Source: Actinomycetota bacterium (GTDB lineage Bacteria > Actinomycetota > UBA4738 > HRBIN12). Taken from it: a stretch of 44,178 bases of DNA. The position numbers and the translations under genes are program-made. The stretch spans positions 1 to 44,178 of the forward strand of contig JAJPHY010000150.1 in the NCBI GenBank assembly GCA_021325015.1, in the 5' to 3' direction. Positions 1 through 34,587 of this stretch are shown in pieces. Positions within the stretch are counted from its first letter, which is position 1. Each line of letters starts with the position of its first letter. Under the pieces are notes generated by a model that saw only the letters and a list, made by a program, of their open reading frames with translations, did no database searches and was not told the DNA's origin.

Positions 1-851
1 ATCGGTCCCCAGATGGTGCCGAGGCCCCCGATCACGAGCATGGTGACGTCGATCGACATCGGCGTGAGGCCCATGGCCGACGTCGTGAACGACTGGTTGT
101 AGCTGAGGTAGAGTCCGCCGGCCACCCCGGCGATGAAGCCGGAGATCGCGAAGGCGATGACTCGGTACCTCAACGGGCTGATCCCCCGCGCCGCTGCGTA
201 GGCGGGGGAGTCACGGATGGTTCGCAGAGCGATCCCCAACCTGGAGGAGCGGATCCAGGCGACGAGGAGGGTCGCGGCGGCCGCCACCGCGAGGACCGTC
301 CAGAAGTACGCATGCAGCGCGGTCGTGGGGGGCAGGAACGAGTACAGCCCTCGAACGGTCGGGAAGCCGAACGAGCCTCCGGTCAGACCGGCCGGGTCGT
401 TCACAACGATGAACAGGAACACCTGCGCGAACGAGAACGTGAGCAGCGATGTATAGATCCCGTGCAGTCGGAGCGTCGGGAACGCGAGCAGGATCGACAC
501 GCCGGCGGCCAGGAGTCCTCCCAGCAGGATCGCAAGCGGCGGCGGCACCGGCGTGTGCAGCATCAGCAGGCCGGTGCCGTAGCCTCCGAGCGCGTAGATC
601 GCGAGCTGCCCGAAGTTCCAAACGCCGGCGATCCCGAGCACGAAGTTCCAGCTGATGTTGAGCACCAACGTGATCATCGCGGTCACCATCACCCCGACGG
701 CGTAGTCGTTGGACCACACGAACGGGACCAGGACCGCGACCGCTACCAGGGCCAGGATGCCGGCCTTCTCGGCCCCGCTCAGCGCCCGGCCGCGCCCGAT
801 CCGGGTGGCAGTCGGCGAAACGGTGGCGCCGGGCGCCGTGACGGCGCTCAC
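1..851 (-). CDS. livM: Branched-chain amino acid-type ABC transporter permease LivM (3' end truncated by window edge)
   Basis: Own reverse-strand translation from GTG at 851: VSAVTAPGATVSPTATRIGRGRALSGAEKAG...NISWNFVLGIAGVWNFGQLAIYALGGYG; LivM-like hydrophobic protein; overlaps the livH stop by 4 nt. Not in the ORF track because it is open at the window edge. Confidence 0.85.
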   Translation of the reverse strand, partial: MSAVTAPGATVSPTATRIGRGRALSGAEKAGILALVAVAVLVPFVWSNDYAVGVMVTAMITLVLNISWNFVLGIAGVWNFGQLAIYALGGYGTGLLMLHTPVPPPLAILLGGLLAAGVSILLAFPTLRLHGIYTSLLTFSFAQVFLFIVVNDPAGLTGGSFGFPTVRGLYSFLPPTTALHAYFWTVLAVAAAATLLVAWIRSSRLGIALRTIRDSPAYAAARGISPLRYRVIAFAISGFIAGVAGGLYLSYNQSFTTSAMGLTPMSIDVTMLVIGGLGTIWGP

Positions 852-1741
852 AGCCGCGCCTCCTCGGGCCTGCCCTTCAATCCGTGGGGCCGGACGATCA
901 GGATGAGCAGGATGATCCCGTAGAGGATCGGCAGGGACCACGTGGTCCCCACGAGGACCTCCGCGGTGGCCTGGATGAGTCCGATCGTGTACGCCGCGTA
1001 CAGCGTGCCCGGCAGGCTCCCCAGCCCCCCGAAGATCACCACGATGAGGGCCTCGAGCAAGGGCAGGTCCCCCGCGCCCGGATACGCGAAGAACTTCGCT
1101 CCCAGGAAGACGCCGCCGATCCCGGCGAGCGCCGACGCGAGCCCCATCGTGAGTGGGTACAGCCTCATCACGGGGACGCCCATCAGGCGGGCGGCGTCCA
1201 GATCCTGCGCCACCGCGCGGATCGCGAGCCCCCACCTCGTCCTCGCCAGGAACAGCCCCAGGGCGGCCATCAGTCCGATCGAGACCAGCGCCATCGTGAG
1301 GTTCTGATAGGAGAGGTCGACTCCCCGGTAGATGTCGATGCCGCCGCTCACCACCGGCGACACGTTCTTCTGGAAGGGCCCGAAGACCTGCAACGCGACG
1401 TTGGCGAAGACGATCGCGACCGCGAAGGTGGTGATGAACGTGACCATCTCGAAGTCGAACCCCCGACGCCCCATGAGCGGCTGCACAGAGATCAGCTCGG
1501 TGAAGGTTCCGAGCGCGAACGTGATCGCGAACGCGAACAGGATGGCCAGCGCGGGGCTCCATCCCGCCACGACCAGGACCCCCCATCCAACGAAGCTCCC
1601 GACCATCACCATCGAGCCCTGGGACATATCGAGGATCCGAAGCGTCCCGTAGATCAGCGTCATCCCGATCGCGACCAGGCCGTAGATCGAGCCGAGCACA
1701 ACCGTCTCGACCAGGATCCCGATGACGTCGGTCAGGTGCAT
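848..1741 (-). CDS. livH: Branched-chain amino acid-type ABC transporter permease LivH
   Basis: 297 aa ORF; GSIYGLVAIGMTLIYGTLRILDMSQGSMVMVG and EALIVVIFGGLGSLPGTLYAAYTIGLIQ are typical LivH segments. Confidence 0.92.
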   Translation of the reverse strand: MHLTDVIGILVETVVLGSIYGLVAIGMTLIYGTLRILDMSQGSMVMVGSFVGWGVLVVAGWSPALAILFAFAITFALGTFTELISVQPLMGRRGFDFEMVTFITTFAVAIVFANVALQVFGPFQKNVSPVVSGGIDIYRGVDLSYQNLTMALVSIGLMAALGLFLARTRWGLAIRAVAQDLDAARLMGVPVMRLYPLTMGLASALAGIGGVFLGAKFFAYPGAGDLPLLEALIVVIFGGLGSLPGTLYAAYTIGLIQATAEVLVGTTWSLPILYGIILLILIVRPHGLKGRPEEARL

Positions 1742-1749: not shown

Positions 1750-2517
1750 CTACAGCGTGCCGAGATAGGTCTGGACGACGGTCTGATCCCTCGACAGCTC
1801 CTCGAGCGGACCGGTTCGGACGATCGATCCCATCTCGACGACGTGCACGATGTCGGCGACGTCGCCGATGTGGGTGAAGTTCTCCTCGACGAGCAAGATC
1901 GTCGTCCCCTGAGCGTGGATGTCCCGGATCGCCGCGTACACGCGCTCGATCGCGACGGGAGCCAGACCGAGGGAGGGTTCGTCGATCAGCAGGATCGAGG
2001 CCTCTCGCATCAAGCCGCGCCCGAGCCCGACCAGTCGACGCTCACCGCCGGAAAGCGTCCGGGCGCGTTGGCCGGCTCGTTCTCGGAGCCCCGGGATGAG
2101 GCCGTAGACGTGTTCGAGAGCGGCGTGCCGCTTCCGCCAGGACCTGGGCAGGAAGGCACCCATCAGCAGGTTCTCCTCGACGGTCATGTCGGGGAACAGC
2201 AGGTCGCCTTGTGGGATGTGGACCATGCCGAGGGTTGCGAGGTACTCAGCACTGCGGCCGTCGACGCGTTCGCCCGCAAGCCACACCTCTCCTCGCCGAC
2301 GCTTGACCAACCCGGAGATGGTGCGAAGCAGCGTGGTCTTGCCGTGTCCGTTCGGCCCGATGATCACGACCGTCTGGCCGGCAGGTACCCGAAGATCCAG
2401 GCCTCGAACGACCATGGTGTCGCCGTAGCCCGACCACAGATCTCGGACCTCGAGGATCGCGTCCCTCCCGGCCGGGACAGGCTCGGCTCCCGCCACGGCA
2501 CGTGGTGCCCCGTTCAT
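1750..2517 (-). CDS. livF: ABC transporter ATP-binding protein LivF
   Basis: Walker A GPNGHGKTTLL, signature LSGGERRLVGLGRGLM, Walker B ILLIDEPSLGL; start placed at ATG 2517 ([13 protein letters not shown]...), overlapping livG stop. Confidence 0.92.
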   Translation of the reverse strand: MNGAPRAVAGAEPVPAGRDAILEVRDLWSGYGDTMVVRGLDLRVPAGQTVVIIGPNGHGKTTLLRTISGLVKRRRGEVWLAGERVDGRSAEYLATLGMVHIPQGDLLFPDMTVEENLLMGAFLPRSWRKRHAALEHVYGLIPGLRERAGQRARTLSGGERRLVGLGRGLMREASILLIDEPSLGLAPVAIERVYAAIRDIHAQGTTILLVEENFTHIGDVADIVHVVEMGSIVRTGPLEELSRDQTVVQTYLGTL

Positions 2518-3293
2518 GCGCGCGGCTCGCGTTGGGTCAGATCGGCGCCGTGGCGCTGGCCAAGGTAGACCTCGATCACCTGGGGATCCGCAAGCATCTC
2601 GCTCGGCGTTCCGACGAAGAGCTCGGCGCCATGGTGCATGACCAGCACGCGGTCGGCGAGCGACGTCAGCGCGCGCATCACATGCTCGATGACCACAACC
2701 GCCAGGCCACCGTCCCGGAGCGTTCGGATCAGCCTCATCACGTGGTCGATCTCCTGAGGGTTCAGGCCGCCGAACGGCTCGTCGAGGAGGAGGACCCGCG
2801 GATTCGTCGCCAGGGCGGTCGCGAGCATCAGTCGTTTCTTGTCGAACACGCCGAGCGGGCCCGCCGGTGTGTCGGCACGGTCGGTGAGTCCCACGAAGTC
2901 CAGGTGACGCACCGCCTCGGCGATGTCGCCAGCCCTGCCACCCTCCCGGCGGTTTCGGCGAAAGGAGGCGGCCAGGTAGAGGTTCTCCAGCACGGTGAGC
3001 GAGTCGGCGATGGTGGGCTGCTGGAAGGTGCGGGCCAGGCCGAGCGCGCACCTTCTGTGGACGGACGCGTCCGCGATCGACACGCCGCCGAGCAGCACGT
3101 CACCGCTCGTCGCCGGCGTCAGCCCGGTGATGACGTCGAACAGCGTGGTCTTGCCGGCGCCGTTCGGGCCGACGATGCCGAGGATCTCTCCGGCCCGGAC
3201 CTCGAACGACACATCGACGACCGCTCGGAGCCCGCCGTAGTTCTTGCACAGCGCGCGGCCTTCGAGGACCGGGCGCAGCTCCCGATCGTTCAC
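2514..3293 (-). CDS. livG: ABC transporter ATP-binding protein LivG
   Basis: Walker [12 protein letters not shown], Walker [18 protein letters not shown] start at 3293 overlaps stop of the substrate-binding protein gene. Confidence 0.9.
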
Positions 3294-4642
3294 GTCAGCC
3301 AGGCTGGCAGCTGGAAGGTCCCCGTCGTGTACGGGTCGGGCGAGATCAGCACCTGCTGCCCGTTCTGGATCTGGAACGTCAGGTGCGGCATCCCGAGCGA
3401 GGGATCGGGTGTGAAATCGGGGTACGGCATGCAGGTGTTCCCGCCGGGGTCCAGGTCGAACGAGTAGGTCCCGCACACCCCTCGGTAGATCGTGCCCTTG
3501 ACGATCCCGTTGATCTTGTCGAACGCGTACGGATCTCCCGCCTCCGCTGCGGCCTGAGCCCACAGCTTGACCAGGTCGTACTGGTCGCCGGCGTTCGAGA
3601 ACCCGGGAGGCCGGTTGAACTTCTGCTGGAACGCCTCGGCGAACTGCTTCGCTCGGTCGTCTCCGGCCAGCACACCCACGACCGTCGACCACAGCACACC
3701 ATCGGCGGCATCCCCGGCCAGGTCCAGGTACTCGGGAATCGATGGCGCGTACTGCTGGTACACGAGCGAGTTCGTTGGGGACTGCCGGAACTGTTTCATG
3801 AACGAGGCCTCGTCGCCCGCCGCGTAGTCGCTGAAGAAGACGATCCCCGGATTCGCCGACCGGATCTTCACGAGCACCCCAGTCCAGTCCGCCTGAGGAA
3901 CTGTGAACTGCTCGAAGCCGTCCGTCGTCCAGCCCTGCTTCTCCATGCCGGCCTGAAAGGTCTTCGAGATGTTGAGCGAGTACGGGTCGTTGGACGTGAC
4001 GACGAAGATCGACTTCTTCGCGGGTGTCCACGTTCCGCTCTCGATCAGGTTGCTTACCAGGACGACGAAGCCGGGGCCGTACCAGGTCTCCGAGGGGTCG
4101 CCCTGGAAGATGTTGGTGATCTGGTGCTCCTTCACGTAGTCGACGTTGCCGTGCCAGGTGTTGACGTGGAACATCGGGATCCGGGCCTGAGCCACGATCG
4201 GGTACTCGACCGACGTGTAGGTCGTGAAGCCGGAGAAGATCGCCGCGACGTTCTGCGAGACGAGCTTCTGGAACACGTTCTTCATCACGTCGGGTTCTTG
4301 AGCTTTGGTGTCCAGGACCTGCAGCTTGAGCGGTCGACCGAGGACTCCGCCCGCGGTGTTGATCTCCGCGATGGCGAGCTGCTGACCGCGGACCATCTGC
4401 TGGCCATCCCCGGCGAACGGGCCGGTCACGGGGCTGGCCGACCCGATCAGGATTGGCTCCGCACTGCCGCCGCCCGCCGCGGTCGAGGCGGCTCCCGAAC
4501 CGGCGTTGCCGGCGAGGTAGCCGCCGACGCCGCCGATGACCAGTCCCCCCACGCCGGCACCCACCGCGCCCTGCAGGAGCTGCCGACGCGTGACCCTGCC
4601 GCCGGCTCCGGCGACCCGCTGCCCACCGGGCTCACTCGCCAT
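3290..4642 (-). CDS. Branched-chain-amino-acid/urea-type ABC transporter substrate-binding protein
   Basis: Twin-arginine-like signal (VTRRQLLQGAVGAGVGGLVIGG), then PILIGSASPVTGPFAGDGQQMVRGQQLAIAEINTAGGVLGRPLKLQVLDTK typical of Peripla_BP_6. Start at 4642 preceded by GAGGAGGGG. Confidence 0.9.
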   Translation of the reverse strand: MASEPGGQRVAGAGGRVTRRQLLQGAVGAGVGGLVIGGVGGYLAGNAGSGAASTAAGGGSAEPILIGSASPVTGPFAGDGQQMVRGQQLAIAEINTAGGVLGRPLKLQVLDTKAQEPDVMKNVFQKLVSQNVAAIFSGFTTYTSVEYPIVAQARIPMFHVNTWHGNVDYVKEHQITNIFQGDPSETWYGPGFVVLVSNLIESGTWTPAKKSIFVVTSNDPYSLNISKTFQAGMEKQGWTTDGFEQFTVPQADWTGVLVKIRSANPGIVFFSDYAAGDEASFMKQFRQSPTNSLVYQQYAPSIPEYLDLAGDAADGVLWSTVVGVLAGDDRAKQFAEAFQQKFNRPPGFSNAGDQYDLVKLWAQAAAEAGDPYAFDKINGIVKGTIYRGVCGTYSFDLDPGGNTCMPYPDFTPDPSLGMPHLTFQIQNGQQVLISPDPYTTGTFQLPAWLT

Positions 4643-4715: not shown

Positions 4716-4747
4716 CCCGGGCATCCGTCAAATGACGGATGCCCGGG
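4716..4747. promoter_or_regulatory. Candidate operator: 15-bp perfect inverted repeat CCCGGGCATCCGTCA-AA-TGACGGATGCCCGGG
   Basis: Read directly; located between the divergent substrate-binding protein and LuxR-type regulator genes; core repeated at 11157-11172. Confidence 0.8.
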
Positions 4748-4825: not shown

Positions 4826-6583
4826 ATGGAGACGGTGTATGGCTCATCGGCCATCGTCCATCGCGATGGGACGATCGAAGAGCTCGAGGGGGCGGCTGGA
4901 CGCCGGTTGCTGCTGGCCAGTCCCGATCTCCTCCGGTACGCGAGGGCGTTGCTCCGGCTCGACGTTCCGGACGTGCGTTTCCTGTGGCATGGCGCGCCGG
5001 GATGGCTCCTCGTCCGCATGGAGCGTTCCCGTCAGGCTCGTTCCGACCGGTGCGTCGTCTCCCTGTGGTGGCGTGATCTCCCCTGTGGTCTGACTGCGCG
5101 CGAGCTCGACGTCCTGACGCTGATCGCCGGGGGGCTGGGAAACCGAGAGATCGCCGGACGCCTGCGCGCGAGCGTCCGGACGGTTTCCACGCACGTGGAG
5201 CACATCTTGCTGAAGCTCGGTGCGCGGAGCCGAGCCGGTGCGGCCGCCATCGCCGTCGATCGGGGACTGCTCCGGCTCCCCATTCCTGGGGGAGCGCGCG
5301 ATCTGGACGGTCTCGGGGTCGGAGCCCTGGAGGCCGCCGTCGCCGAGGAGCGCGACGCCACCCGCTTGATCCGAATCGACGCACCCATCGCGATCGATCG
5401 GCGGCGCCCCCACCTGATCGGCGCGGCGTTTCCGCTCAGCGGCCCGGCCCGTGCCGACGGAATCCAGATGCGCAACGGGGCCATGCTGGCGATCGATGAG
5501 ATCAACGCCCGAGGGGGGGTCGCCGGTCGACCGATCGAACTCGTGTCCGTCGACATGAACATCTTCTCAGAACAGGGGGTTCGCGATGCCTTCGGGCGGC
5601 TCGAGGCCGTGGACATCGACGCCATCATCGTCGGGTACACGCTGTCGGGAACCGAGTTCGCGCTCGAGGCGGCGGCGGATCTCGGCATCCCGTTCCTGCA
5701 CGCGACGACCTCCGAGGCGGCGCTCACGCGGGTTCGCTCCGACCCGGGACGCTTCCAGCGGATCTTTCAAGTCTGTCCGAGCGAGGTTCACTACGGAGTT
5801 GGTTTCATCCGGTTTCTGGACGATCTCGCCCGAGGGGAACGATGGGAGCCACCCAGTCGGCGACTGATGATCATCGAGACTCCCGTGGACAGCGGCCAGA
5901 TGGCGACGACGCCGACGCTGGCGGCGGCCGCCGCTTCTGGCTGGATCGTCGATGCCGTGGAGTGCGTGCCCGAGCTCGATGCGGACTGGGAGGGTCTTGT
6001 GCGCCGAATCCACGCCGTCGATCCCGCCGCTGTTTTGGTCGCGGACTTCGTTCCGAGAGAGCTTGCCGCCTTCCAGCGCGCGTATGCCGCGAACCCCACC
6101 GACGCGCTCGTCTACGCGATCTACGCGCCCTCCGTGCCCGAGTTCCTCGAGCTCGCGGGGCCGACCGCGGAGGGGCTGATCTGGTCGACCGTGACCGGTA
6201 CGTACCCGGATCTCCTCGGCGGACGCTTCGCCCGCCGCTACCTGCGGGCGTTCGGGCGCCCGCCGGGCCGCTCGCACGCCGGGATCGCATACGACGAGGT
6301 TCACCTTCTCGCCAGTGCGTGGGCGGGCGTTGGCAATCCCCGCGATTTCGACGGCGTCGCGTCCCATCTCCGGCATGGGGCGTACCGCGGGGTCAACGGC
6401 ACCTACTTCTTCGACGAGTCCCAGGGAGCCATCTCGTACCCCGGAATGACGCTCGACCCCTCGCTCGGGCAGGCCCACCTCGTGTTCCAGGTGCAAAACG
6501 GGGAGCACCGGGTACTGGCTCCCGCCCCGTACGTCCAGGCGGCGTTCCGTCCACCTCCATGGGTACGGGCGAGGGCCACCTGA
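4826..6583 (+). CDS. LuxR-type HTH regulator with C-terminal periplasmic-binding-protein-like ligand domain
   Basis: LTARELDVLTLIAGGLGNREIAGRLRASVRTVSTHVEHILLKLGARSRAGAAAIA is a LuxR/GerE HTH; downstream HLIGAAFPLSGPARADGIQMRNGAMLAIDEINARGGVAGRPIELVSVDMN is Peripla_BP_6-like. No signal peptide or TM segment evident. Confidence 0.85.
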   Translation: METVYGSSAIVHRDGTIEELEGAAGRRLLLASPDLLRYARALLRLDVPDVRFLWHGAPGWLLVRMERSRQARSDRCVVSLWWRDLPCGLTARELDVLTLIAGGLGNREIAGRLRASVRTVSTHVEHILLKLGARSRAGAAAIAVDRGLLRLPIPGGARDLDGLGVGALEAAVAEERDATRLIRIDAPIAIDRRRPHLIGAAFPLSGPARADGIQMRNGAMLAIDEINARGGVAGRPIELVSVDMNIFSEQGVRDAFGRLEAVDIDAIIVGYTLSGTEFALEAAADLGIPFLHATTSEAALTRVRSDPGRFQRIFQVCPSEVHYGVGFIRFLDDLARGERWEPPSRRLMIIETPVDSGQMATTPTLAAAAASGWIVDAVECVPELDADWEGLVRRIHAVDPAAVLVADFVPRELAAFQRAYAANPTDALVYAIYAPSVPEFLELAGPTAEGLIWSTVTGTYPDLLGGRFARRYLRAFGRPPGRSHAGIAYDEVHLLASAWAGVGNPRDFDGVASHLRHGAYRGVNGTYFFDESQGAISYPGMTLDPSLGQAHLVFQVQNGEHRVLAPAPYVQAAFRPPPWVRARAT

Positions 6584-6586: not shown

Positions 6587-7612
6587 CTATCGGAGGAGCG
6601 GGGCGACGCGCTCGCCGAACACGTCCAGGGCTTCCCGCTGCAGTGCCCGGTCCATTCCAGGCCAGTAGAGCCGAGCGATGTAGTGCACGTCGCCTCCGGC
6701 CGCGTCCCGGAACCGCGCGATCTGCTCGGCCACCTCCTCGGGCGTGCCGAGGAGGATCGAGGCGCGCAGGGCCTCCTCCTCGCCCGAGGGAAGAGGCGGC
6801 GGGGCCACTGGAGGACCGAGACGCGACCGAGCCCCGTCCATGTCCTCGTACTTCCAGGACACGTACCGGTGGTAGGGGCGCACCAGTTCCCAGGCCCGTC
6901 GTGGGTTGCCCTCGAACGCGAAGGTCGGCAGGTGCAGTGAGATCGCAAGGGTCGCGGGATCCCTTCCGGACCGCTCCCGCTCCTCGCGCGCCCACCGGAC
7001 CTGCTCGGCGAAGGATTCCGCCGTCACGTCGGTCGCCATGAACCCGTCGCCGATTCTCCCCGCCCGCCGGACGGCGGGCTCCGAAAGCGCCCCGATCCAC
7101 AGCGGAGGACCGCCCGCCCGGGACGGAGCCGGGGTGACGGCCACGCCCGGATAGGACCGGGTGCCGCCCGTGACGAGCTTTCCTGCCCAGGCCTGCCGCG
7201 CAACCCTCACTGCCTCTTCGAGTCGCGACACCCGCTCGCGCAGCGGAACGCCGAACGCCTCGAACTCTTCCGCGCGCCATCCAAGGCCGAGTCCGAGCAC
7301 GAGACGCCCCCGCGACAGGAGGTCGACGACCGCGGCGTCCTCGACCAAGCGGAGCGGCTCGATGAGGGGGGCGAGGAGCAGGGCGGTGCCGACCAGCACG
7401 CGGCGGGTTCTGGCGGCGATCGCGGCGCACATCGGCAGCACCGAGGGCAGGTAGGCATCGTCGACGAAGTGGTGCTCGGAGACCCACACCGAGTCCAAGC
7501 CGATGCGCTCTGCCTGCTCCGCGAGCTCGAGAGCCTCCGTGTATCGGTCTTCGTCGGACCGCGGATCCCCCGGGTACCGCTGGCAGGTGATCAGGCCGAA
7601 GCCCAGCTTCAT
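6587..7612 (-). CDS. LLM class flavin-dependent oxidoreductase (luciferase-like)
   Basis: MKLGFGLITCQRYPGDPRSDEDRYTEALELAEQAERIGLDSVWVSEHHFVDDAYLPSVLPMCAAIAARTRRVLVGTALLLAPL; start chosen at ATG 7612. Confidence 0.9.
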   Translation of the reverse strand: MKLGFGLITCQRYPGDPRSDEDRYTEALELAEQAERIGLDSVWVSEHHFVDDAYLPSVLPMCAAIAARTRRVLVGTALLLAPLIEPLRLVEDAAVVDLLSRGRLVLGLGLGWRAEEFEAFGVPLRERVSRLEEAVRVARQAWAGKLVTGGTRSYPGVAVTPAPSRAGGPPLWIGALSEPAVRRAGRIGDGFMATDVTAESFAEQVRWAREERERSGRDPATLAISLHLPTFAFEGNPRRAWELVRPYHRYVSWKYEDMDGARSRLGPPVAPPPLPSGEEEALRASILLGTPEEVAEQIARFRDAAGGDVHYIARLYWPGMDRALQREALDVFGERVAPLLR

Positions 7613-8778
7613 ATGCGGCTTGCCTTCTGGGCGGGGATCACCCCGCGTACCGCCGAGGGCTTCGACAGGAAGGAGGCGTAGTCGAGCTCGGCGTACGGCG
7701 TCGTGCAGGGGTGCCCATCGGCCACCCACATCCGTCGCTCATCGAGGTCCATCAGCACCGAGGCGACGGTGGCACCCTGATCGTGCGCGTCCATGCGCGG
7801 GTCGGGGTGGCAGCAGATCCCGGAAGGATGGTTGGCGTGGTCGGCCAGGAGCTCCCGGAAGCTGCCGATCGCGAGCTTCGACCCGCGCCGACGGACCCCT
7901 GCGCGGAGCCGCTCCAGCCGGAAAGGGCTGTCGGGCATGACCCAGAGCGACACATCCTTCGCATCGAAGGACGGCGATACGAAGTGGTTGGTGTGCAGGA
8001 GGACGCCGTCGACCGGGAACGTGAGGAACAGCCGGGAGAAGTCGCCCGGAGCCGCTTCAATGTCGACCGCGATGCCGTCGACCGAGGCGATCAGGTAGTT
8101 GGCCGAGGAGGATCGCACGCCGCGTTGCGTCACGGCGTAGGCATCCGACAGGTTCTCGGCGTCGAGGATTCCGCGAAGCACCAGGTGGTACGGCACGCCT
8201 GGCTCACCGAGGTCACGGTCGGTCACCAGGGCGTTGGTGGCGAGCCCGATTCCCGAGGAGTTCATCCCGATCTTGGCGAGCAGCCCGGCCTCGACCACCG
8301 TCACGAAGTCCGGCCCCTCGTCCTGCCGGACCTCCAGAATCACGACCGTCTCGAACGAATGAAGCAGCCAGTCCCAGTTCTGCCCGATCAGCGTGTGCCC
8401 GTCCGCGCTCCGCTCGGGAAGCACGGCGAATGCGCTGCAGCCGTCGAGCGGGGCGCCCTGGGCGGCAGCGATCCGTGCCTTGGCGGCAAACATCACCTCG
8501 GTCCTGACGTTGATCGCCAGGACGTCCTCGAAGGCCGCGTCGGCGCCCTCCGCGATGCCGCGCATCTCCTCGAGGTACCGAACGTCGAACCGCTCGATCG
8601 GCGCGATGTAGCGCGTGGCCTCCCGTTGAACGTCGGGCCAGCGCCACCCCGTGTAGTGGGCGAAGACCTCCTCGTAGGCCTCGATCGAACGGCGCACCCG
8701 GTCGCGAGCCTGCTCGCCGTACTGCCGGCCGCGCTCCCGGGGCGTCCCGTCCACCCGGACCTGAGGAAACCGTTCCAT
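7609..8778 (-). CDS. C45 family autoproteolytic acyltransferase/hydrolase (acyl-CoA:6-APA acyltransferase-like)
   Basis: GTPRERGRQYGEQARDRVRRSIEAY, then DGCSAFAVLPERSADGHTLIGQNWDW with the DG|CS self-processing motif typical of the family. Confidence 0.85.
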   Translation of the reverse strand: MERFPQVRVDGTPRERGRQYGEQARDRVRRSIEAYEEVFAHYTGWRWPDVQREATRYIAPIERFDVRYLEEMRGIAEGADAAFEDVLAINVRTEVMFAAKARIAAAQGAPLDGCSAFAVLPERSADGHTLIGQNWDWLLHSFETVVILEVRQDEGPDFVTVVEAGLLAKIGMNSSGIGLATNALVTDRDLGEPGVPYHLVLRGILDAENLSDAYAVTQRGVRSSSANYLIASVDGIAVDIEAAPGDFSRLFLTFPVDGVLLHTNHFVSPSFDAKDVSLWVMPDSPFRLERLRAGVRRRGSKLAIGSFRELLADHANHPSGICCHPDPRMDAHDQGATVASVLMDLDERRMWVADGHPCTTPYAELDYASFLSKPSAVRGVIPAQKASRI

Positions 8779-8797
8779 GGACCCGACCCTCCTTCGA

Positions 8798-9544
8798 TCA
8801 GATCGCGGTTGCACCGCCGTCCACGGGCAGCGCAACTCCGGTCACGTAGCCGGATCCGTCGGCGGACAGGAACGCGATCGCCTCGGCGACCTCGCGCGGC
8901 GTTCCAAGACGTCTCAGCGGCACCATCTCGTGGAGGTACCGCTCCCCGACCGCAGGGTCATCCATCATCCGCAGCATGGGAGTATCGATCACGCCCGGGC
9001 ACACGGCGTTCACCCGGATCGCCGGCGCCAGCTCCACCGCCAGCTGCTTGGTCAGCGCGATCACTCCGGCTTTGCTGGCGTTGTAGTGGACCGACGGCTC
9101 GTCCCGATCCGCGACGAGCCCCGCCGTCGACGAGATGTTCACGATCGTCCCGCGACTGCCCGCCGCCACGAGTCGTGCGGCGACGGCTCGGGCGACCAGC
9201 CACGAGCCACGGAGGTTCGTGTCCACGACCTCGTCCCACTCCGCTACGTCGAGGTCGATCGCGGGGGCGAACCGGTAGACGCCGGCGGCGTTGACCAGCA
9301 GGTCCGGCGCCCCGCCGAGCGCGGTCGCCGCCTCATCGACGGCGCGCTCGACCTCCGCCGGATCCCGCACGTCGGCGATCACGGCCGACGCACCGAGCTC
9401 GGAGGCGACCGGGGCGAGGGCGTCCCCGCGCCGGTCCAGCACGCACATGCGCGCGCCCTCCTCTGCCAGCAGAGCCGCGGTTGCTCGCCCGATCCCCGAC
9501 GCACCGCCGGTGACGAGCGCGCGGCGCCCATGGAATCGGCTCAC
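8798..9544 (-). CDS. SDR family NAD(P)-dependent oxidoreductase
   Basis: ALVTGGASGIGRATA, VNAAGVYR, YNASKAGV motifs. Confidence 0.93.
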   Translation of the reverse strand: MSRFHGRRALVTGGASGIGRATAALLAEEGARMCVLDRRGDALAPVASELGASAVIADVRDPAEVERAVDEAATALGGAPDLLVNAAGVYRFAPAIDLDVAEWDEVVDTNLRGSWLVARAVAARLVAAGSRGTIVNISSTAGLVADRDEPSVHYNASKAGVIALTKQLAVELAPAIRVNAVCPGVIDTPMLRMMDDPAVGERYLHEMVPLRRLGTPREVAEAIAFLSADGSGYVTGVALPVDGGATAI

Positions 9545-10317
9545 GTGAGCAGCACCCCGCCGTTCACGCCGATGGTCTGCCCGGTGACGTAGGCCGCGTC
9601 GTCGGAGACCAACCAGGCGACGGTTCCCGCGACGTCGTCGCCCGTTCCATGACGGCCCAGCGGGATCGTGCGTCTGATCGCTTCAAGCTCCTCCTCGAAG
9701 GTGGTGCCCCGCTCGTCGGCGCGGGCGCGGACGTAGTCGAAGTGCATCTGGGTTCGCATGTTCCCGGGAGAGACCGTGTTCACGCGAACGCCTAGGGAGG
9801 CAAGCTCGAGCGCGAGCACCTGAGTGAGCAGCGCAACCCCGGCCTTCGACGAAGCGTAGGCGCAATCCCCGGCCACGGCCTGCTGTCCGAGAATCGAGCT
9901 CGTGTTCACGATCGCGCACCCTTTGCCCTGGCGAGCGAACTGACGCGCGACCGAACGCGACATGAGGAACGTGCCCACCAGGTTCACCTCAATCACCCGG
10001 CGGAACTCGGCCGCCGACGTCTCGGTGACCGGTGTCCCTGGGCCGCCGACACCCGCGAGGTTGACCAGCACGTCGATACCGCCGAACGCCGACACCGTTG
10101 CCGAAACGGCGGCGTCGCAGAAGCGCTCGTCCGTGACGTCCCCGACTAACGTGAGCACCCGGGCGCCTTCATGCAAGGACCGCAGGCGATCCGCCGTCTC
10201 GTGAACGGCGGCCGAGACGTCCACCAGCGTAACGGGCGAGCCGTCGCGGACGAGCCGCTCGGCGACCCGGGCCCCGAGCCCCCCGGCAGCCCCGGTCACG
10301 ATCGAGCGTCGCCTCAC
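9541..10317 (-). CDS. SDR family NAD(P)-dependent oxidoreductase
   Basis: SIVTGAAGGLGARVAERLV, VNLAGVGG, YASSKAGVALL; GTG start at 10317 overlaps the upstream gene's stop. Confidence 0.93.
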   Translation of the reverse strand: MRRRSIVTGAAGGLGARVAERLVRDGSPVTLVDVSAAVHETADRLRSLHEGARVLTLVGDVTDERFCDAAVSATVSAFGGIDVLVNLAGVGGPGTPVTETSAAEFRRVIEVNLVGTFLMSRSVARQFARQGKGCAIVNTSSILGQQAVAGDCAYASSKAGVALLTQVLALELASLGVRVNTVSPGNMRTQMHFDYVRARADERGTTFEEELEAIRRTIPLGRHGTGDDVAGTVAWLVSDDAAYVTGQTIGVNGGVLLT

Positions 10318-11096
10318 GGGACCCGCTCCGCGATCTCGGCGCAGGTGGCAACCCAGACGTCGTCGTGGCCGGTCACCCACTCCAGCATGTGTTCGAGAAG
10401 GGCCAGCCGGTATGGGCGGCCCATGATCTGGGGGTGCATCGTGAGCACGTACGCCCCGCCGAGCCTGCGGTAGCCGAGAAACTCCGCCTCCCAGATCGCC
10501 CCCACTTCGTCCGCGGTGGAGATCTTCTTGGTCCAGGTCGCGCCGTCGAACCAGAAGTGCGCGGCGTCGTCGAGGATCCAATGAATCGGGATCTCAACCA
10601 GTCCGGACCGCTTGTGACGGTACGGGCGCAGGTCGTCCATGAGATTCGACGAGTAGCGAAAGCCGCGAGCCTGCAGCAGCTCCTCGGTGCTCGCGCTGAA
10701 GTCCCAGGAGGGGGACCGGTACCCCACGATCTCGGTCCCGAAGGAACGAAGGACCTCCAGTCCCTTCGTCAGCTCGGCCTCCTCCTCGTCGGGGGCGAGC
10801 GCGGTCGGCGACGTGTGCGTGTAGCCGTGGTGCGCGAGCTCGTGGCCTGCGGCCACGATCTCGTTCACCCGCTCGGGGTGCCGCTCGGCCACGCGGCCGG
10901 GGACGAAGAAGGTCGCCCGCACGCCGAACCTCTCGAGTGCTTCCAGGATCAGAGGCACGGCAACCTTGGCCCCGTACGTTCCCTGGGAGAGGACCCCCGG
11001 CTTCGAGGCGTTCGCGGGGTCCTCTCCGATCCACACCTCCTCGGCGTCGAAGTCGAACGTGAAGGCTGCGGCAGCTCGCTTCCCTTCGGGCCACAC
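10314..11096 (-). CDS. Polysaccharide deacetylase family protein (NodB fold; imidase/allantoinase-like subgroup possible)
   Basis: AAAFTFDFDAEEVW, LERFGVRATFFVPGRVAERHPERVNEIVAAGHELAHHGYTH; TMHPQIMGRPYR near C-terminus. Confidence 0.88.
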   Translation of the reverse strand: MWPEGKRAAAAFTFDFDAEEVWIGEDPANASKPGVLSQGTYGAKVAVPLILEALERFGVRATFFVPGRVAERHPERVNEIVAAGHELAHHGYTHTSPTALAPDEEEAELTKGLEVLRSFGTEIVGYRSPSWDFSASTEELLQARGFRYSSNLMDDLRPYRHKRSGLVEIPIHWILDDAAHFWFDGATWTKKISTADEVGAIWEAEFLGYRRLGGAYVLTMHPQIMGRPYRLALLEHMLEWVTGHDDVWVATCAEIAERVP

Positions 11097-11153: not shown

Positions 11154-11172
11154 GCATCCGTCATTTGACGGA
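11154..11172. promoter_or_regulatory. Second copy of candidate operator (GCATCCGTCATTTGACGGA)
   Basis: Same dyad TCCGTCA-NN-TGACGGA as at 4724-4739 (reverse complement orientation of the AA/TT centre); 61-76 bp upstream of the deacetylase start. Confidence 0.8.
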
Positions 11173-11225
11173 GGGCCCGAACTGGCGCATCGAGCGTATC
11201 GGAGGGGTCGGCTCTCGTGGGTCGC

Positions 11226-12719
11226 TCAGCCGTCCTCGGCACCCGATTCCCCATCGGGCAGCCAGAACTCGACCCGCGTGCCCGAGGCCGGTGCACCGGA
11301 GACCTTCAGCCAGCCACCGCATGACTCCGCTCGCTCGCGCATGCTCTCCAGCCCGAGATGCCCCGCGCGCGCGGATCGGTCCGGCCCCAAGCCCTTGCCG
11401 TCGTCGCTCACGTGCACCAGCATCCCCCCGCGCGAGCGCTCGAGAGTCACGTGAACGGAGCGGGCCTCCGCGTGCTTGGCGACGTTCCGGAGGGCCTCTT
11501 GCAGGATCCGGAAGCAGGTCGTGCGCGCCGGCTCGGCCGGCTCGGCCTGCAGCCGGTTCTTCAGGCTCGCCTCAACCCCCGTGTCACGGTGGAGATCGTC
11601 GAGCAGTCCTCGCACGGCGTCGGCGAGCCCTCCGCGTTCGAGGCTCGGCGGCACGAGCTCGAACAGGAGCGTGCGAAGCTCCCGCGTGACGGATTCGGTC
11701 ATGCGCCCGAGCTCCTCGACCGCGGCGACGAGCTCGGAGTCGTCCAAGCGGCTGCGGAGCATCTCAAGCCGGAGTCCCATGGCGACGGCCTTCTGCACGG
11801 GGCCGTCGTGCACTTCGCCGGCGATGCGCCGGTGCTCCTGCTCCCGGGCCTCCACCACGCGCGCGAGCAGGCGCTTGCGGTCCTCGTCGGTCTCCCGGAG
11901 CGCCGAGACGGTCATGCGCAGCACCTGCTCGACCTCCTTGTGGGCGGTGACGTCGACCATCACCCCCTGCCAGAGCTCCGGAGTCGAGGGCACGGGGACG
12001 GCCTCGTCGCGAATCCACACGACGCGCCCGTCGCGAGCGAGCACGCGATACTCGCACCGGAACGGTCGCCCCTCTCGCTGGCACGCCGCCTCCTCCTGGA
12101 GCACCCGATCCCGGTCCTCGGCGTGCAGGTGCGTGGTGAGGGCGTTCTCCTGCATCATCCACTCCTCAGGCGAGTACCCGAGCACGTCGTGGATCCTCGG
12201 GCTCACGTAGAGCCACTGACCCGTCGGGCCGAGGCCCGCCACGTAGACGATGCAGGGGATCTGCTCGACGAGCGTCCGGTACTTCTGCTCGGCTTGCCGG
12301 AGCTCGCGCTCGACCAGCCGGCGCTCGGTGATGTCGATCGCGAAGCCGACGGCGCCCACGATCTGGCCATCCGGCTGCACCTGCGGCACCACGCGCGACA
12401 GAAACGTCCGGTCCATCCAGTCGAGCTCGTAGGTCGCCGCCCGCCCTTGCAACGCGCGCAGGTGAGCGTCGATCGGTGTGAACGTGGCGTCGTCAGTCCC
12501 GAAGAACTCGAAGAGCGTCCGGCCGACGTTCTCGCCGGACTTGGATCCCAGGCCGGCAAGCGCCCCGCCCTCGGACAGCGTGAACCGCAGGTCTCGATCG
12601 ACCGCCCAGATCACCGCGGGCATCTGCCCGATGAGCGTCGGAAAGCGGTCGCCCTCGCGCGGTGCCGAACCGCCCTCGAGCGTCTCTCGGGCCGCGCGAA
12701 CGCCCTCCCCCCCGGCCAT
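11226..12719 (-). CDS. PAS-domain sensor histidine kinase (HisKA_3/NarL-partner type)
   Basis: Two PAS-like regions, H-box EHRRIAGEVHDGPVQKAVAMGLRLEML, HATPase motif VSDDGKGLG...GHLGLESMRERAE. Confidence 0.9.
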   Translation of the reverse strand: MAGGEGVRAARETLEGGSAPREGDRFPTLIGQMPAVIWAVDRDLRFTLSEGGALAGLGSKSGENVGRTLFEFFGTDDATFTPIDAHLRALQGRAATYELDWMDRTFLSRVVPQVQPDGQIVGAVGFAIDITERRLVERELRQAEQKYRTLVEQIPCIVYVAGLGPTGQWLYVSPRIHDVLGYSPEEWMMQENALTTHLHAEDRDRVLQEEAACQREGRPFRCEYRVLARDGRVVWIRDEAVPVPSTPELWQGVMVDVTAHKEVEQVLRMTVSALRETDEDRKRLLARVVEAREQEHRRIAGEVHDGPVQKAVAMGLRLEMLRSRLDDSELVAAVEELGRMTESVTRELRTLLFELVPPSLERGGLADAVRGLLDDLHRDTGVEASLKNRLQAEPAEPARTTCFRILQEALRNVAKHAEARSVHVTLERSRGGMLVHVSDDGKGLGPDRSARAGHLGLESMRERAESCGGWLKVSGAPASGTRVEFWLPDGESGAEDG

Positions 12720-12860
12720 CTCACCCCCTCGTCGACGACTCGACGCGCGCTCCGATACCTAACGGGTGTATCTCGACCTTGAGCGATGTATCGGCACGCC
12801 GGGGGGAAAGGTGAGCGGTCCCTTCGAGCGGTCCGGGTTCGCCCGGGCGGCGGTCCGGGC

Positions 12861-14570
12861 TCAGGCCTCGGCGACCCCGCTGCCCGGAAGCCAGGCCTCG
12901 ACGGTCGTTCCCGCCCCGGGCCGGCTCTCGATCCGGCTCCAGCCGCCCACCATCTCCGCCCGCTCGCGGATGGAGGTGATGCCGAGATGTCCCGGCCGTC
13001 CGTTGCGCAGAATCTCGGGATCCATGCCGACCCCGTCGTCGCGGACGCGAAGGAAGAGCCCTCCCTCTCGCTCCTCGAGAAGCACGTCGACGCGGCTTGC
13101 CTCGGCATGGCGCTGCACGTTCGACAGGGCCTCTACCGCGATTCGGTAGGCGACCGTCCGGATCCCGTCGGGAGGCTCAGAGATCAGACGGTCCTCGACC
13201 CGGCAGTCGCGGAGCTCGCCCTTGGACAGGTCGACGAACTCCCGAACCGCGGCCACCAGTCCACCGGCGTCGAGCGAAGGAGGACGGAGGTCGAACATCA
13301 TGTGCCGGAGGTGATCGATCGCGAGGCGGACGACGTCTTGGAGTCCGTCGACGATCTCGATCTGTTCGGGATCCGACAGGCTCCGCCGGAGGAGCTGGAG
13401 GCGGAGCCCGACGGCGGTGATCTTCTGAACGGGGTCGTCGTGAATCGCCTCCGCGATCCTGCGCCGCTCGACCTCCTCCGCCGAGACCAGCACCTGGAGC
13501 AGCCGTTGCCGCTCCATGTCGGTGCGCCGCAACAGCTCGAAGCTCTCACGGAGCTCCTCGTCGGCCCTCGTACGGGCCGTGATGTCGAACAACGCGCCCT
13601 GCCAGTAACGCGGCCTCCCATCCGGGTCGTCGACGCGGACGGACTCTTCCTGGATCCAGAGCGTCCGGCCGTCCTTCGCGACGGCTCGGTACTCGGCGCT
13701 GAAAGGGGTGCCCTGCTCGTCCGCCCGGAGGCCGAGCTTGATGATCCGCTCGCGATCGTCCGGGTGCAGGATGCGGTCTGCCCAAAGCGACGGATCTCCC
13801 AGCCACTCCTCGACCGTGTATCCGAGGATGGTCTGCAGCTTGGGGCTTACGTAGAGGGGCCGGATGTCGTCGGGTCCGGGCCCGGTGATCTCGTCGATGT
13901 ACGTGATGGCCGGGAGGCGTTCGACCAGCGTTCGATACCTGGTCTCTGCGTCTCGCGCCTCGCGGACCAGCTCGCCCAGGCGGCCGTGGAAGTCGAGCAG
14001 CAACGCAAGCACGAGCCCCACGGTCGAGATGCCTCCCGCGGTCCGGATCCCGGACACGAACTCCGCAGGAAGCTCTGGCCCGACCGAGACCAGCCGCGCG
14101 ACCAAGAGGGTGGTCGCGGTCCATGCGAAACAGGCCCCGAAGATCGTCCAGTGTCGGGCTTGGCCCGCGTACAGGACCGAGGTGAGGGAGATGAGCAGGG
14201 AGACGCTCACTGGAACGAGCGCGATATCGGGCATCGCGAGCGTGACCACCGTTCCCATCACCAACAGTGAACCCCACAGCATGGTGAGCGCCGAGCGCGA
14301 ACGCCCCAGGTCGACCAGACGTCGACCGATCAAACAGGCGACGCCGGTGGCGGCGGTCGCGGACGCGGTCGCGATCAGCCAGCCGCTGTGGAGCGCCACG
14401 GCGCCTGCGGTGCCGCTGGTCGCGAAGCCGAAGGCAAGGAGTCCGATCCACCCGAGCAGGCGGTGGAGGTTTCGATCGGACACACCCTCCGGTACCTCGA
14501 CGTCCCGGATGCGCTCGACCACCTGAACGGACTCGCCCGCCCCATGCGGACGGTCGAGCGGAACGGTCAT
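12861..14570 (-). CDS. Membrane PAS sensor histidine kinase (HisKA_3 type)
   Basis: N-terminal hydrophobic segments, PAS, H-box ERRRIAEAIHDDPVQKITAVGLRLQLLR, VRDDGVGMD...GHLGITSIRERAEMVGG. Confidence 0.9.
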   Translation of the reverse strand: MTVPLDRPHGAGESVQVVERIRDVEVPEGVSDRNLHRLLGWIGLLAFGFATSGTAGAVALHSGWLIATASATAATGVACLIGRRLVDLGRSRSALTMLWGSLLVMGTVVTLAMPDIALVPVSVSLLISLTSVLYAGQARHWTIFGACFAWTATTLLVARLVSVGPELPAEFVSGIRTAGGISTVGLVLALLLDFHGRLGELVREARDAETRYRTLVERLPAITYIDEITGPGPDDIRPLYVSPKLQTILGYTVEEWLGDPSLWADRILHPDDRERIIKLGLRADEQGTPFSAEYRAVAKDGRTLWIQEESVRVDDPDGRPRYWQGALFDITARTRADEELRESFELLRRTDMERQRLLQVLVSAEEVERRRIAEAIHDDPVQKITAVGLRLQLLRRSLSDPEQIEIVDGLQDVVRLAIDHLRHMMFDLRPPSLDAGGLVAAVREFVDLSKGELRDCRVEDRLISEPPDGIRTVAYRIAVEALSNVQRHAEASRVDVLLEEREGGLFLRVRDDGVGMDPEILRNGRPGHLGITSIRERAEMVGGWSRIESRPGAGTTVEAWLPGSGVAEA

Positions 14571-15102: not shown

Positions 15103-16185
15103 ATGCGGCCTCGCCCATTCCGGTCGGTATCCCGCCTGATCGTCGCTCTGGTTCCGCTCGCCCTCGTCGCCTCGGCGTGCGGCGGCGGATCCTCGCCCGG
15201 ATCGAACACCTCCCGCGGTCCGTGCACGCCGGCCAAGACGCCGGTCATCAACTTCGCCGCCTACAGCACGCCCCGCGAGGTCTACGGCCAGGTCATCCCC
15301 GCCTTCCAGTCCATGTGGAAGGAGGAGCACGACGGGCAGTCGGTGATCTTCCAGGAGTCCTATGCCGGCTCCACGACGCAGGCGCAGAACGTCATCGCCG
15401 GCTACCCCGCGGACGTCGTGGCGCTGTCGCTCGCACCCGATGTGGACGCGATCAAGGATGCGGGCCTGATCACGCACGACTGGACGCAGGCGCCCGACGG
15501 CGGCATGGTCTCGACCTCGGTCGTGGTCTTCGACGTCCGGCCCGGCAACCCGCTCGGCATCAAGGACTACGACGACCTGACCAAGCCGGGCGTTCAGATC
15601 CTCACCCCCGACCCCGCACAGAGCGGCGGTGCGCGCTGGAACCTCGTGGCGGCCTGGGGCGCGGCCCTCCGCGGGTACGCCGGCGTGCGGAAGGGCGACG
15701 AGGCCGGGGCGGCCGAGCTCCTCAAGGGGATTTTCGAGAACGTGCTCACGCTCGACAAGAGCGCCCGAGACTCGATCCAGAACTTCGAGTCCGGCAACGG
15801 CAACGTCGCGATCACCTACGAAAACGAGGTCAAGACCGCGCAGGAGGCGGGCCTTCCGGATGAGGCCGTGTACCCGCCGTCCACCGTCCTCATCCAGAAC
15901 CCGGTCGCAGTGGTGGACAAGAACGCCGAGGCGCACTGCGTGCTCGACATCGCCAACGCGTTCGTCGATTTCCTGCACACTCCCGAGGTCAAGCAGATGT
16001 ACCTGGAGGCCGGGTACCGGTCGACCGATCTCGCGCTCGCGAAGAAGGGCGATCCCAAGCTCGGCTACCCGCCGATCGGGGATCTGTTCACGGTCGACGA
16101 CTTGGGCGGCTGGCCGGCGCTCGACCAGAAGCTGTTCGGCCCCGACGGGATCGCGACGACGGCCCTCGCCGAGGCCCAGGGCTGA
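15103..16185 (+). CDS. sbp: Sulfate ABC transporter substrate-binding lipoprotein
   Basis: Lipobox VASACGGG; INFAAYSTPREVYGQVIPAFQSMW, FQESYAGSTTQAQNVIAGYPADVVALSLAPDVD typical of CysP/Sbp. Confidence 0.92.
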   Translation: MRPRPFRSVSRLIVALVPLALVASACGGGSSPGSNTSRGPCTPAKTPVINFAAYSTPREVYGQVIPAFQSMWKEEHDGQSVIFQESYAGSTTQAQNVIAGYPADVVALSLAPDVDAIKDAGLITHDWTQAPDGGMVSTSVVVFDVRPGNPLGIKDYDDLTKPGVQILTPDPAQSGGARWNLVAAWGAALRGYAGVRKGDEAGAAELLKGIFENVLTLDKSARDSIQNFESGNGNVAITYENEVKTAQEAGLPDEAVYPPSTVLIQNPVAVVDKNAEAHCVLDIANAFVDFLHTPEVKQMYLEAGYRSTDLALAKKGDPKLGYPPIGDLFTVDDLGGWPALDQKLFGPDGIATTALAEAQG

Positions 16186-16198
16186 GCCGAGATCGACG

Positions 16199-17059
16199 AT
16201 GGTGAGCGCCGCGCGGGCGACCGGACGGAGGTGGTCCCTCTCCTCGCGGGCGGCCGCGCGACTTCGGCACCGGAGCCTGCGCGCCGCCGCCGTCGTGTAC
16301 TTGGGGTTGATGATTGCGCTTCCCGCGGCGGTCGTGATCGACGAGGGCTTCGCCCGCGGCCTCAGCGACCTTCGGGACGGGCTGGCCTACCCCGGCGCGG
16401 CGGAGGCCGTCTGGTTGACGCTGGCCACGTCGACGGCGGCGGCGGTGGTCAACGCGGTGTTCGGAACGATCATCGCCTACGTGCTCGTGCGGTTCCGCTT
16501 CCCGGGCCGCCGGCTGCTCGGGGCTCTCGTGGACCTCCCGCTCGCCATCCCGACGCTCGTGACCGGCGTGATGCTCGTCGCGCTCTACGGTCCCGCGTCG
16601 CCGATCGGGCGGGCCCTCGAAGGGGCGGGGATCGAGGTGGCGTTCGCCCGGCTCGGGATCCTGCTGGCGCTCCTCGTCGTGACCCTTCCGTTCGTCGTTC
16701 GAGCCGTCCAGCCCGTGCTCCTCGAGCTCGACCCGGCCGAGGAGGAGGCGGCCGAGACCCTCGGCGCCAGCGGCTGGACGACGTTTCGCCGGATCGTGCT
16801 CCCGGCGATCCGCCCCGCGATCGCGGCGGGGGCGCTTCTCGTGTTCGCGCGCTCGCTCGGAGAGTTCGGGAGCGTCGTGATCGTCTCCGGCAACATCACC
16901 GGACGAACCCTGACCGCGCCGGTCCTGATCTTCCAGCTCGCGTCCCAGTTCAAGCCCGAGCAGGCGGCGGCCGTCGCCTCGGTTCTGTTCGCGATCTCCT
17001 TCGGCACGGTGTTGATCACCACGCGACTCGCGCGCGGGCGAAGAGGGGGACAGCCGTGA
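16199..17059 (+). CDS. cysT: Sulfate ABC transporter permease CysT/CysU
   Basis: DLPLAIPTLVTGVMLVALYG, EEEAAETLGASGWTTFRRIVLPAIRPAI, LGEFGSVVIVSGN. Confidence 0.93.
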   Translation: MVSAARATGRRWSLSSRAAARLRHRSLRAAAVVYLGLMIALPAAVVIDEGFARGLSDLRDGLAYPGAAEAVWLTLATSTAAAVVNAVFGTIIAYVLVRFRFPGRRLLGALVDLPLAIPTLVTGVMLVALYGPASPIGRALEGAGIEVAFARLGILLALLVVTLPFVVRAVQPVLLELDPAEEEAAETLGASGWTTFRRIVLPAIRPAIAAGALLVFARSLGEFGSVVIVSGNITGRTLTAPVLIFQLASQFKPEQAAAVASVLFAISFGTVLITTRLARGRRGGQP

Positions 17060-17928
17060 GCGCCGGGTTCGCCATCCGGCGGGGCGGCGATCGGGACGCG
17101 ATGTTTCGCAGGCGGCGCCGCGCTGCCGTGCTGCGCGGGATGCTGGTCGCGCTCTGCGTGCTGTACCTCGCGGTGCTCCTCCTCGCGCCGCTCGCCGGCG
17201 TCGTCTGGCAGGCGCTCCGGCCCGGGTGGCGGGTCCTGGGCGACACGTTCACCCGATCCGATGTGGTGCACGCCTTCACCCTGACCGCCGTGATCGCGCT
17301 GATCACCGTGGCCGTCACCACCGCGTTCGGCGTGGTCGTCGCGTGGGTGCTGGTACGGCAGCGCTTCCGCGGCCGGGCGTTCCTGAACGCCCTGGTCGAT
17401 CTGCCGTTCGCGCTCTCGCCCGTGACGGTCGGCCTGGCCTGCGTGCTGCTGTTCGGGCGGGGCGGGTGGTTCCACGACTTCTTCGCCGCGCGCGGGATCC
17501 AGATCATCTTCGCCCTGCCATCGATGGTCCTCGTGACGATCTTCATCAGCGTCCCGTTCACGATCCGCGAAGTGCAGCCCGTGCTCGAGGAGATCGGAGT
17601 CGAGGAAGAGGACGCGGCCCGGACGCTCGGTGCCTCGGTGATGCAGACGTTCCTCCGGGTCACGCTCCCGAACATCCGGCGGGGCCTTCTCTACGGGATC
17701 GCGCTGTCCGCCGCGCGTGCGATCGGCGAGATCGGTGCGGTGCTGGTGGTCAGCGGACTCATCCAGGGCCGTACCGAGACCGCGACGCTCTACATCTACC
17801 GGGCGATGGAGGAGCGGCAAACGGCCTCGGCGTACGTCGTGGCCCTCACCCTTGCCGGCGTGTCGGTCCTGATCCTCGCGGCGATCGAGTGGGTCAAGCG
17901 CAAGCGGACCAGGGAGGACGAAGCATGA
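17056..17928 (+). CDS. cysW: Sulfate ABC transporter permease CysW
   Basis: VDLPFALSPVTVGLACVLLFGRGGWF, EEEDAARTLGASVMQTFLRVTLPNIR, IGEIGAVLVVSG. Confidence 0.93.
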   Translation: MSAGFAIRRGGDRDAMFRRRRRAAVLRGMLVALCVLYLAVLLLAPLAGVVWQALRPGWRVLGDTFTRSDVVHAFTLTAVIALITVAVTTAFGVVVAWVLVRQRFRGRAFLNALVDLPFALSPVTVGLACVLLFGRGGWFHDFFAARGIQIIFALPSMVLVTIFISVPFTIREVQPVLEEIGVEEEDAARTLGASVMQTFLRVTLPNIRRGLLYGIALSAARAIGEIGAVLVVSGLIQGRTETATLYIYRAMEERQTASAYVVALTLAGVSVLILAAIEWVKRKRTREDEA

Positions 17929-19013: not shown

Positions 19014-19025
19014 GCATCTCGGTCG

Positions 19026-27281: not shown

Positions 27282-27772
27282 GCGGCCCGATCCGGGTCCG
27301 GGTCGTCGGCTGCGGGAACCCCAGCGCGGGCGATGACGCCGTCGGTCTGATCGCCGTCCGGGAAGTCCGGTCCGAGCTGGAGACCCTGCCGGGGGTCGAG
27401 GTCGTGGAGGCCGGCCCGGCGCTGAACGTCGTGCACCTCCTCGAAGGGGTTGACGCCGCGGTGGTGGTGGACGCCGTGCGCTCGCCGCAGGGACGGCGCT
27501 CGGCTGGGGAGATCGTGCGCGCGGAGGCCGGACCCGACGGGCTCCCGGCCGACGTCGCAACGTCCCTGTCCTCCCACGGGTTCGGTCTGGCCGAGGCGGT
27601 GGCTCTGGCGGGGGCGCTGGGCCATGTCCCACGGATCGTGTTCCTTGGGGTGGAGGTCTCCGACGTCGCCGTCGGACGACCGCTGTCGGCGGCCGTCGCG
27701 GGGGCGCTCCCCCGGCTCGTGGAGCTCATCCGCGCCGAGACCAGGGCGTTCGTGAGGACCCTAGGGTCCTGA
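27239..27772 (+). CDS. Hydrogenase maturation protease (HyaD/HycI family)
   Basis: RVRVVGCGNPSAGDDAVGLIAVREV...AAVVVDAVRS...SSHGFGLAEAVALA. Start uncertain: nearest in-frame GTG codons are at 27239 and 27230, inside the large-subunit gene. Confidence 0.85.
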   Translation: MRDPLPPAGPPAGLSGPIRVRVVGCGNPSAGDDAVGLIAVREVRSELETLPGVEVVEAGPALNVVHLLEGVDAAVVVDAVRSPQGRRSAGEIVRAEAGPDGLPADVATSLSSHGFGLAEAVALAGALGHVPRIVFLGVEVSDVAVGRPLSAAVAGALPRLVELIRAETRAFVRTLGS

Positions 27773-34581: not shown

Positions 34582-34587
34582 GGCGAG

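Follow-up and report, generated by a model that had tools for sequence, protein, structure and literature searches.

The design in which a DNA-binding domain and a substrate-binding-protein (SBP) domain share one polypeptide is rare but known, as in Btr and SgrR. LacI/GalR regulators are dimeric and have a helix-turn-helix (HTH) N-terminal to a type I periplasmic-binding-protein (PBP) domain of the sugar type. The same order is found in the protein considered here, a LuxR-SBP fusion encoded in the window (the whole stretch of 44,178 nucleotides that was analysed), but the LacI-type HTH is absent from it, with no Pfam LacI match at E up to 1. The AmiC-AmiR system of Pseudomonas aeruginosa is alike in having an amide sensor of type I SBP fold that controls an amidase operon; it consists of two proteins and acts by RNA antitermination through ANTAR, whereas the fusion is one polypeptide with a DNA-binding HTH and AmiC is a stand-alone sensor. 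A first-pass annotation of this DNA had taken AmiC as precedent and called the architecture unusual; the latter holds, but Btr and SgrR are closer precedents than AmiC.

Btr has an AraC-type HTH, and its SBP domain is of the iron-siderophore class. As given in PMC9609785, which cites Gaballa and Helmann 2007, the sensory domain of Btr (YbbB) from Bacillus subtilis is FeuA-like and the protein regulates the FeuABC importer. The fusion resembles Btr in its SBP-like sensory domain and in having its gene beside a related importer, differing in its LuxR/GerE HTH and its Peripla_BP_6 domain, which by its placement in the tree is a cousin, and no duplicate, of the neighbouring SBP. SgrR/DsvR possesses an N-terminal HTH followed by a C-terminal SBP_bac_5 solute-binding domain (PMC13060122), joining both functions in one regulator as in the fusion; however, its HTH is another one, and the fusion matches only GerE, and weakly some general HTH profiles, among the Pfam HTH families, AraC-type HTH and SBP_bac_5 being absent. 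Relative to LuxR/NarL-type regulators, the GerE domain is present but not at the C-terminal end, and relative to the SBPs of HAAT importers, the Peripla_BP_6 domain is present but not the export signal. The combination of a LuxR HTH with Peripla_BP_6 appears to be new, and the open-access literature searched yielded no paper on a protein that joins GerE to Peripla_BP_6.

Unfused pairs of a ~340-aa LuxR regulator and an SBP (Rhodopseudomonas palustris L034 and the actinomycetes L080-L083) resemble the fusion in their related HTH, the sister clade of the SBP and the divergent pairing, and the pair L111 shares the exact palindrome described below. They differ in being separate proteins, with the HTH C-terminal, an N-terminal region of their own of ~260 aa or more and an exported SBP.

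Domain Architecture and Localisation

The fusion gene and its parts are as follows:

4826..6583, plus strand: fusion regulator, 585 aa, with PAS-like N-terminus, LuxR/GerE HTH, linker and Peripla_BP_6 domain
4826..5080, plus strand: N-terminal ~85 aa, PAS-like fold (beta2-alpha2-beta3, AlphaFold secondary structure)
5090..5254, plus strand: GerE HTH with recognition helix SVRTVSTHVEHIL (Pfam PF00196, 3.1e-15, and alignment)
5405..6571, plus strand: ligand domain, an SBP domain of type I PBP fold (Pfam PF13458, 2.7e-29)

Both Pfam matches, GerE at residues 89-143 (E 3e-15) and Peripla_BP_6 at residues 198-535 (E 3e-29), lie above the curated cut-offs, confirming that the HTH stands ahead of the ligand domain, as first annotated. 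The HTH is nevertheless internal, since the PAS-like unit, which had gone unmentioned, precedes it. These first ~85 residues are weakly similar to the region before the HTH in the unfused LuxR relatives (profile search, E 0.004 to 0.06), which outrank the genome's other LuxR proteins in this weak match. The nearest solved structure to the SBP domain, by sequence and structure comparison, is 3h5l, whose name is uninformative on the ligand, and the AmiC structures 1qo0 and 1pea are among its structural matches. The C-terminal part of the AlphaFold model is of low confidence, therefore the model was left out of the pocket geometry.

The hydropathy scan of the fusion revealed no signal peptide, transmembrane helix, hydrophobic leader or twin-arginine leader, in agreement with the earlier reading: the best 19-aa value is 1.2 inside the protein and 0.6 within the first 80 residues, while the neighbouring SBP has a twin-arginine-type leader. 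As far as can be told from its sequence, the protein is a one-polypeptide LuxR-HTH and SBP-domain protein without an export signal, and the existence of 13 separate fusions indicates that this architecture is not due to chance. The domains and the absent export signal support the proposal already made that it is a cytoplasmic sensor; most likely it regulates the adjacent importer.

Gene Neighbourhood and Distribution

The SBP gene reported beside the fusion is present, with the amendment that it lies on the minus strand and is thus divergent from the fusion gene. It belongs to a HAAT-type ABC importer:

3290..4642, minus strand: transporter SBP with twin-arginine-type leader (TRRQLLQGAVGAGVGGLVIGG) (Pfam, alignment, hydropathy)
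2514..3275, minus strand: ABC ATPase, LivG/UrtD-like
1750..2460, minus strand: ABC ATPase, LivF/UrtE-like
848..1741, minus strand: permease, LivH/UrtB-like
1..845, minus strand: permease, LivM/UrtC-like, truncated where the contig ends

On the other side, a five-gene hydrolytic and oxidative operon (11096-6587) adjoins the fusion gene:

10314..11096, minus strand: polysaccharide-deacetylase-fold hydrolase (PDac) with PuuE allantoinase and HP0310 as relatives; it leads the catabolic operon
9541..10347, minus strand: short-chain dehydrogenase (SDR)
8798..9544, minus strand: short-chain dehydrogenase (SDR)
7729..8781, minus strand: C45 autoproteolytic acyltransferase/hydrolase (NF040521, 2.2e-86, above cut-off)
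6587..7612, minus strand: luciferase-like (LLM) flavin/F420 oxidoreductase

The fusion has a sparse distribution, with 13 genomes or plasmids found to carry it. Besides the window, these are two further genera of the same family (with 69 and 60% identity to the window fusion), L026, L027, L028 and L029, four genomes (G709, G704, G463 and G578) out of 395 sampled from the class to which L028 belongs, and two plasmids. In an even sample of the phylum (397 genomes), full-length matches occur only in the three genomes of the window's family, and neither the 385 genomes of the Rhodopseudomonas class nor the scanned viral contigs yielded a fused form. The plasmid fusions, from Paenarthrobacter sp. 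YJN-D pYJND-2 (WP_193591265.1) and Agrobacterium tumefaciens pAt14-818c_b, had both domains confirmed with Pfam; their annotation says no more than 'ABC transporter substrate-binding protein', a problem in view of their DNA-binding domain. The Agrobacterium plasmid (L072) is conjugative and carries the only fusion found outside Actinomycetota, with nitrilase-type, PuuE-like, hydantoinase and PucR-type genes as neighbours; it was probably acquired horizontally.

Six genomes carry a set of ten genes alongside the fusion, and a seventh carries part of it. The set comprises the importer (SBP, two ATPases, two permeases) and the PDac-SDR-SDR-C45-LLM enzymes, that is, the PuuE-like hydrolase, two SDRs, the C45 hydrolase and the LLM oxidoreductase. 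In L105 and L106, these ten genes form one colinear run divergent from the fusion. The fusions of L071, L072, L109 and L110 lie beside a nitrilase-type hydrolase and a related PuuE-like hydrolase, with no adjoining importer of the same family as in the window, consequently the control of an importer by the fusions is not universal. Hydantoinase A/B accompanies the fusion in L021, L104, L107, L108 and L072. In L104 (G398), a urease gamma-beta fusion and alpha subunit (8177-10611, minus strand) are located near the fusion and divergent from an amidohydrolase, with the palindrome in between, possibly reflecting a wider nitrogen regulon.

Proposed Mode of Action

Two candidate operators are present in the window:

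4716..4747, no strand assigned: candidate operator 1, CCCGGGCATCCGTCA-AA-TGACGGATGCCCGGG, with perfect 15-nt arms and a 2-nt spacer, in the divergent intergenic region
11156..11173, no strand assigned: candidate operator 2, ATCCGTCA-TT-TGACGGAG, its centre 68 bp ahead of the PDac gene that leads the catabolic operon

The centre of the first is 94 bp away from the start of the fusion and 90 bp away from that of the SBP. The ATG at 4826, with a ribosome-binding-like AGGGGG shortly upstream, was preferred as the fusion start because the start of a longer ORF, at 4739, falls inside this palindrome.

The fusion is probably a cytoplasmic one-component transcription factor, which would sense a small molecule linked to the importer and act through the palindrome on the importer and the catabolic operon. 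It would bind the palindrome as a dimer through its HTH, while the SBP domain would bind, in the cytoplasm, the small molecule brought in by the importer or its breakdown product. By analogy with LacI, AmiC and Btr, the ligand would then close the SBP lobes, so that the dimer is reset along with its palindrome-bound HTH pair, and this closure would switch on the importer, the catabolic operon and the fusion's own gene. Switching on is considered likelier than off because of the usual behaviour of LuxR proteins, and the distances of 68 to 94 bp between site centres and start codons fit the position of an activator, without proving it. The operator, the regulon and the substrate class are directly testable predictions, and the fusion could serve as a ready-made biosensor scaffold.

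Binding Pocket and Candidate Ligand

The pocket was mapped by sequence alignment to LivJ and its ligand-contact positions, where position 150 is the pocket tyrosine and position 226 the alpha-amino-acid glutamate. The neighbouring SBP and the fusion differ at LivJ positions 79 (T versus L), 102 (W versus S), 150 (Y versus S) and 202 (Y versus F), which makes it doubtful that they bind the same ligand, as had been supposed. At position 150, the sampled transporter SBPs have 41 Tyr and 2 Trp, and the tyrosine is lost in all 13 fusions. Such a loss, along with the importer missing from some fusion contexts, would be expected of a degenerate sensor, whose SBP domain no longer binds a ligand and works as a dimerisation or partner-binding module, contacting, for example, transporter parts or another protein. 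This is judged unlikely, as the H..TS, GQM, YxPSVPEF and AGIAYDE motifs of the cleft region are still conserved across the fusions in the alignment, suggesting a retained but altered site.

For a fusion that does sense a small molecule, an amino acid is argued against by position 226, which is aromatic, nearly always Tyr, in all aligned sequences. Every fusion context seen includes amide or cyclic-amide hydrolases (PuuE-like, C45, nitrilase-type, hydantoinase A/B or urease), hence the ligand may tentatively be a nitrogen compound of the cyclic amide, imide or ureide type. The substrate of PuuE is a small cyclic compound (PMC3084791). The catabolic hydrolases are suggestive of an imidase and half-amidase, a reading for which no specific supporting paper was found in the open-access literature.

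Candidate Operator

The operator of NarL is a 7-2-7 inverted repeat. The core of the palindrome, ATCCGTCA-N2-TGACGGAT (TCCGTCA-N2-TGACGGA), is a 7-2-7 palindrome with two copies in the window, both at the promoters where an operator of the fusion would be expected; nowhere else in the 2.6-Mb genome is there a site within one mismatch of it. As controls, the reversed pattern gave 0 sites at the same threshold in the genome, and the palindrome was absent from those other LuxR loci that the search found in the genome; loci fetched by LuxR similarity carry the palindrome themselves. The shuffled window gave a mean of 0.20 matches at up to 3 mismatches. A sigma-70 promoter scan of the intergenic region between fusion and SBP found none, the sigma-70 pattern being uninformative for an actinobacterium.

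Among related genomes, L020 has two perfect palindromes, L021 one perfect and one with two mismatches, and L106, L107 and L118 (the second contig of G398) one each, that of L118 before the SBP. In L020, L021, L106 and L107 they precede the PuuE-like gene, separate SBP and fusion, or do both; they are located in plasmid L071, L109 and L110 before the nitrilase-type gene, and in L104 between the urease operon and the amidohydrolase. The unfused pair L111, from the same genome as L080, has a perfect palindrome between the LuxR and SBP genes. Meanwhile, L072 (helix AKHIEN) and L076/L108 (SKQVES) have divergent recognition helices and no palindrome nearby. Since the sites are shared with unfused LuxR genes and missing where the helix is altered, the operator is older than the fusion, to whose HTH it most likely belongs.

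The palindrome could otherwise belong to a different regulator, with the fusion acting elsewhere, since stand-alone LuxR genes of Nocardia, Pseudonocardia, Arthrobacter and other actinomycetes have variants of it close by. We consider this quite improbable, as those stand-alone proteins are close HTH relatives of the fusion, the remaining LuxR loci found in the window's genome lack the site, and the site tracks the fusion across genera. Because variants adjoin stand-alone LuxR genes, the palindrome is a motif of a wider LuxR subfamily, with the window copies as candidate operators of the fusion.

In L036-L051 (Nocardia, Pseudonocardia, Arthrobacter, Aeromicrobium, Saccharopolyspora and Amycolatopsis), stand-alone LuxR proteins with STHVEH helices have sites of the ATACGTCA-N2-TGACCGAT type close by, in what looks like an operator code for a whole LuxR subfamily.

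Descent of the Ligand Domain

The C-terminal part of the fusion resembles the adjacent SBP as first reported, with 147 of 393 residues identical (37%, E 2e-85), and the stretches quoted from both proteins are present. In the maximum-likelihood tree of 56 SBP domains, however, the 13 fusions form one clade (support 100/99), whose sister group (100/99) consists of eight SBPs, five of which have a divergent partner gene for an unfused LuxR regulator (341 to 392 aa). The SBPs adjoining the fusions form a separate clade, so the ligand domain is not sister to the neighbouring SBP's clade, the outcome that the first-pass annotation had named as refuting its proposal. By-eye alignment suggested a duplicate because raw identity does not separate the neighbour (37%) from the sister-group SBPs (34 to 43%). 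An origin in which the importer's own SBP gene was copied and the copy joined to a LuxR HTH, so as to sense the same ligand, is hardly probable at all despite the 37% identity, the adjacency and the common C-terminal motifs, given that the fusions fall with another subclade, that a constraint joining them with the neighbouring SBPs costs 79.5 log units (AU p 2.8e-9; 1.3e-6 with long branches removed), and that LivJ positions 79, 102, 150 and 202 differ.

The fusion's N-terminal part matches the unfused LuxR proteins at their C-terminal end, similar in the HTH and weakly so in the region before it; an HTH-only tree has too few columns to resolve the ancestry of the HTH. We infer a single origin of the fusion, in which a LuxR regulator was joined to an SBP from the clade whose genes are still found as divergent partners of unfused LuxR genes, and that it would have kept the operator, lost the N-terminal sensor of LuxR and gained a C-terminal one. 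The series from an unfused pair with the operator to a fusion with the same operator suggests a route by which the binding protein of an importer can turn into a transcription factor. There is about an even chance that the fusions constitute an undescribed one-component family, in which a LuxR regulator captured the SBP of a divergently paired importer clade, dropped its N-terminal sensor, kept its operator and later joined a different importer and a cyclic amide/ureide catabolic operon. If true, this would be a traceable case of a transport protein turned into an intracellular receptor.

Other Genes of the Window

Two PAS-type sensor histidine kinases (11226-14570) follow immediately on the far side of the catabolic operon and share its strand, with HisKA_3 found in the first; an HK2-like gene is near the cluster in L020 (4692-7241) and not in the other loci. 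Further along, on the plus strand (15103-21701), there are two more ABC importer sets, by eye of the sulfate type and the nitrate/sulfonate type, unrelated to the fusion. The translations of 23211-40268, also read by eye, correspond to a large NiFe-hydrogenase region, with two sets of hydrogenase subunits, maturation genes like HypF, HypD and HypE, and an HdrA-like protein.
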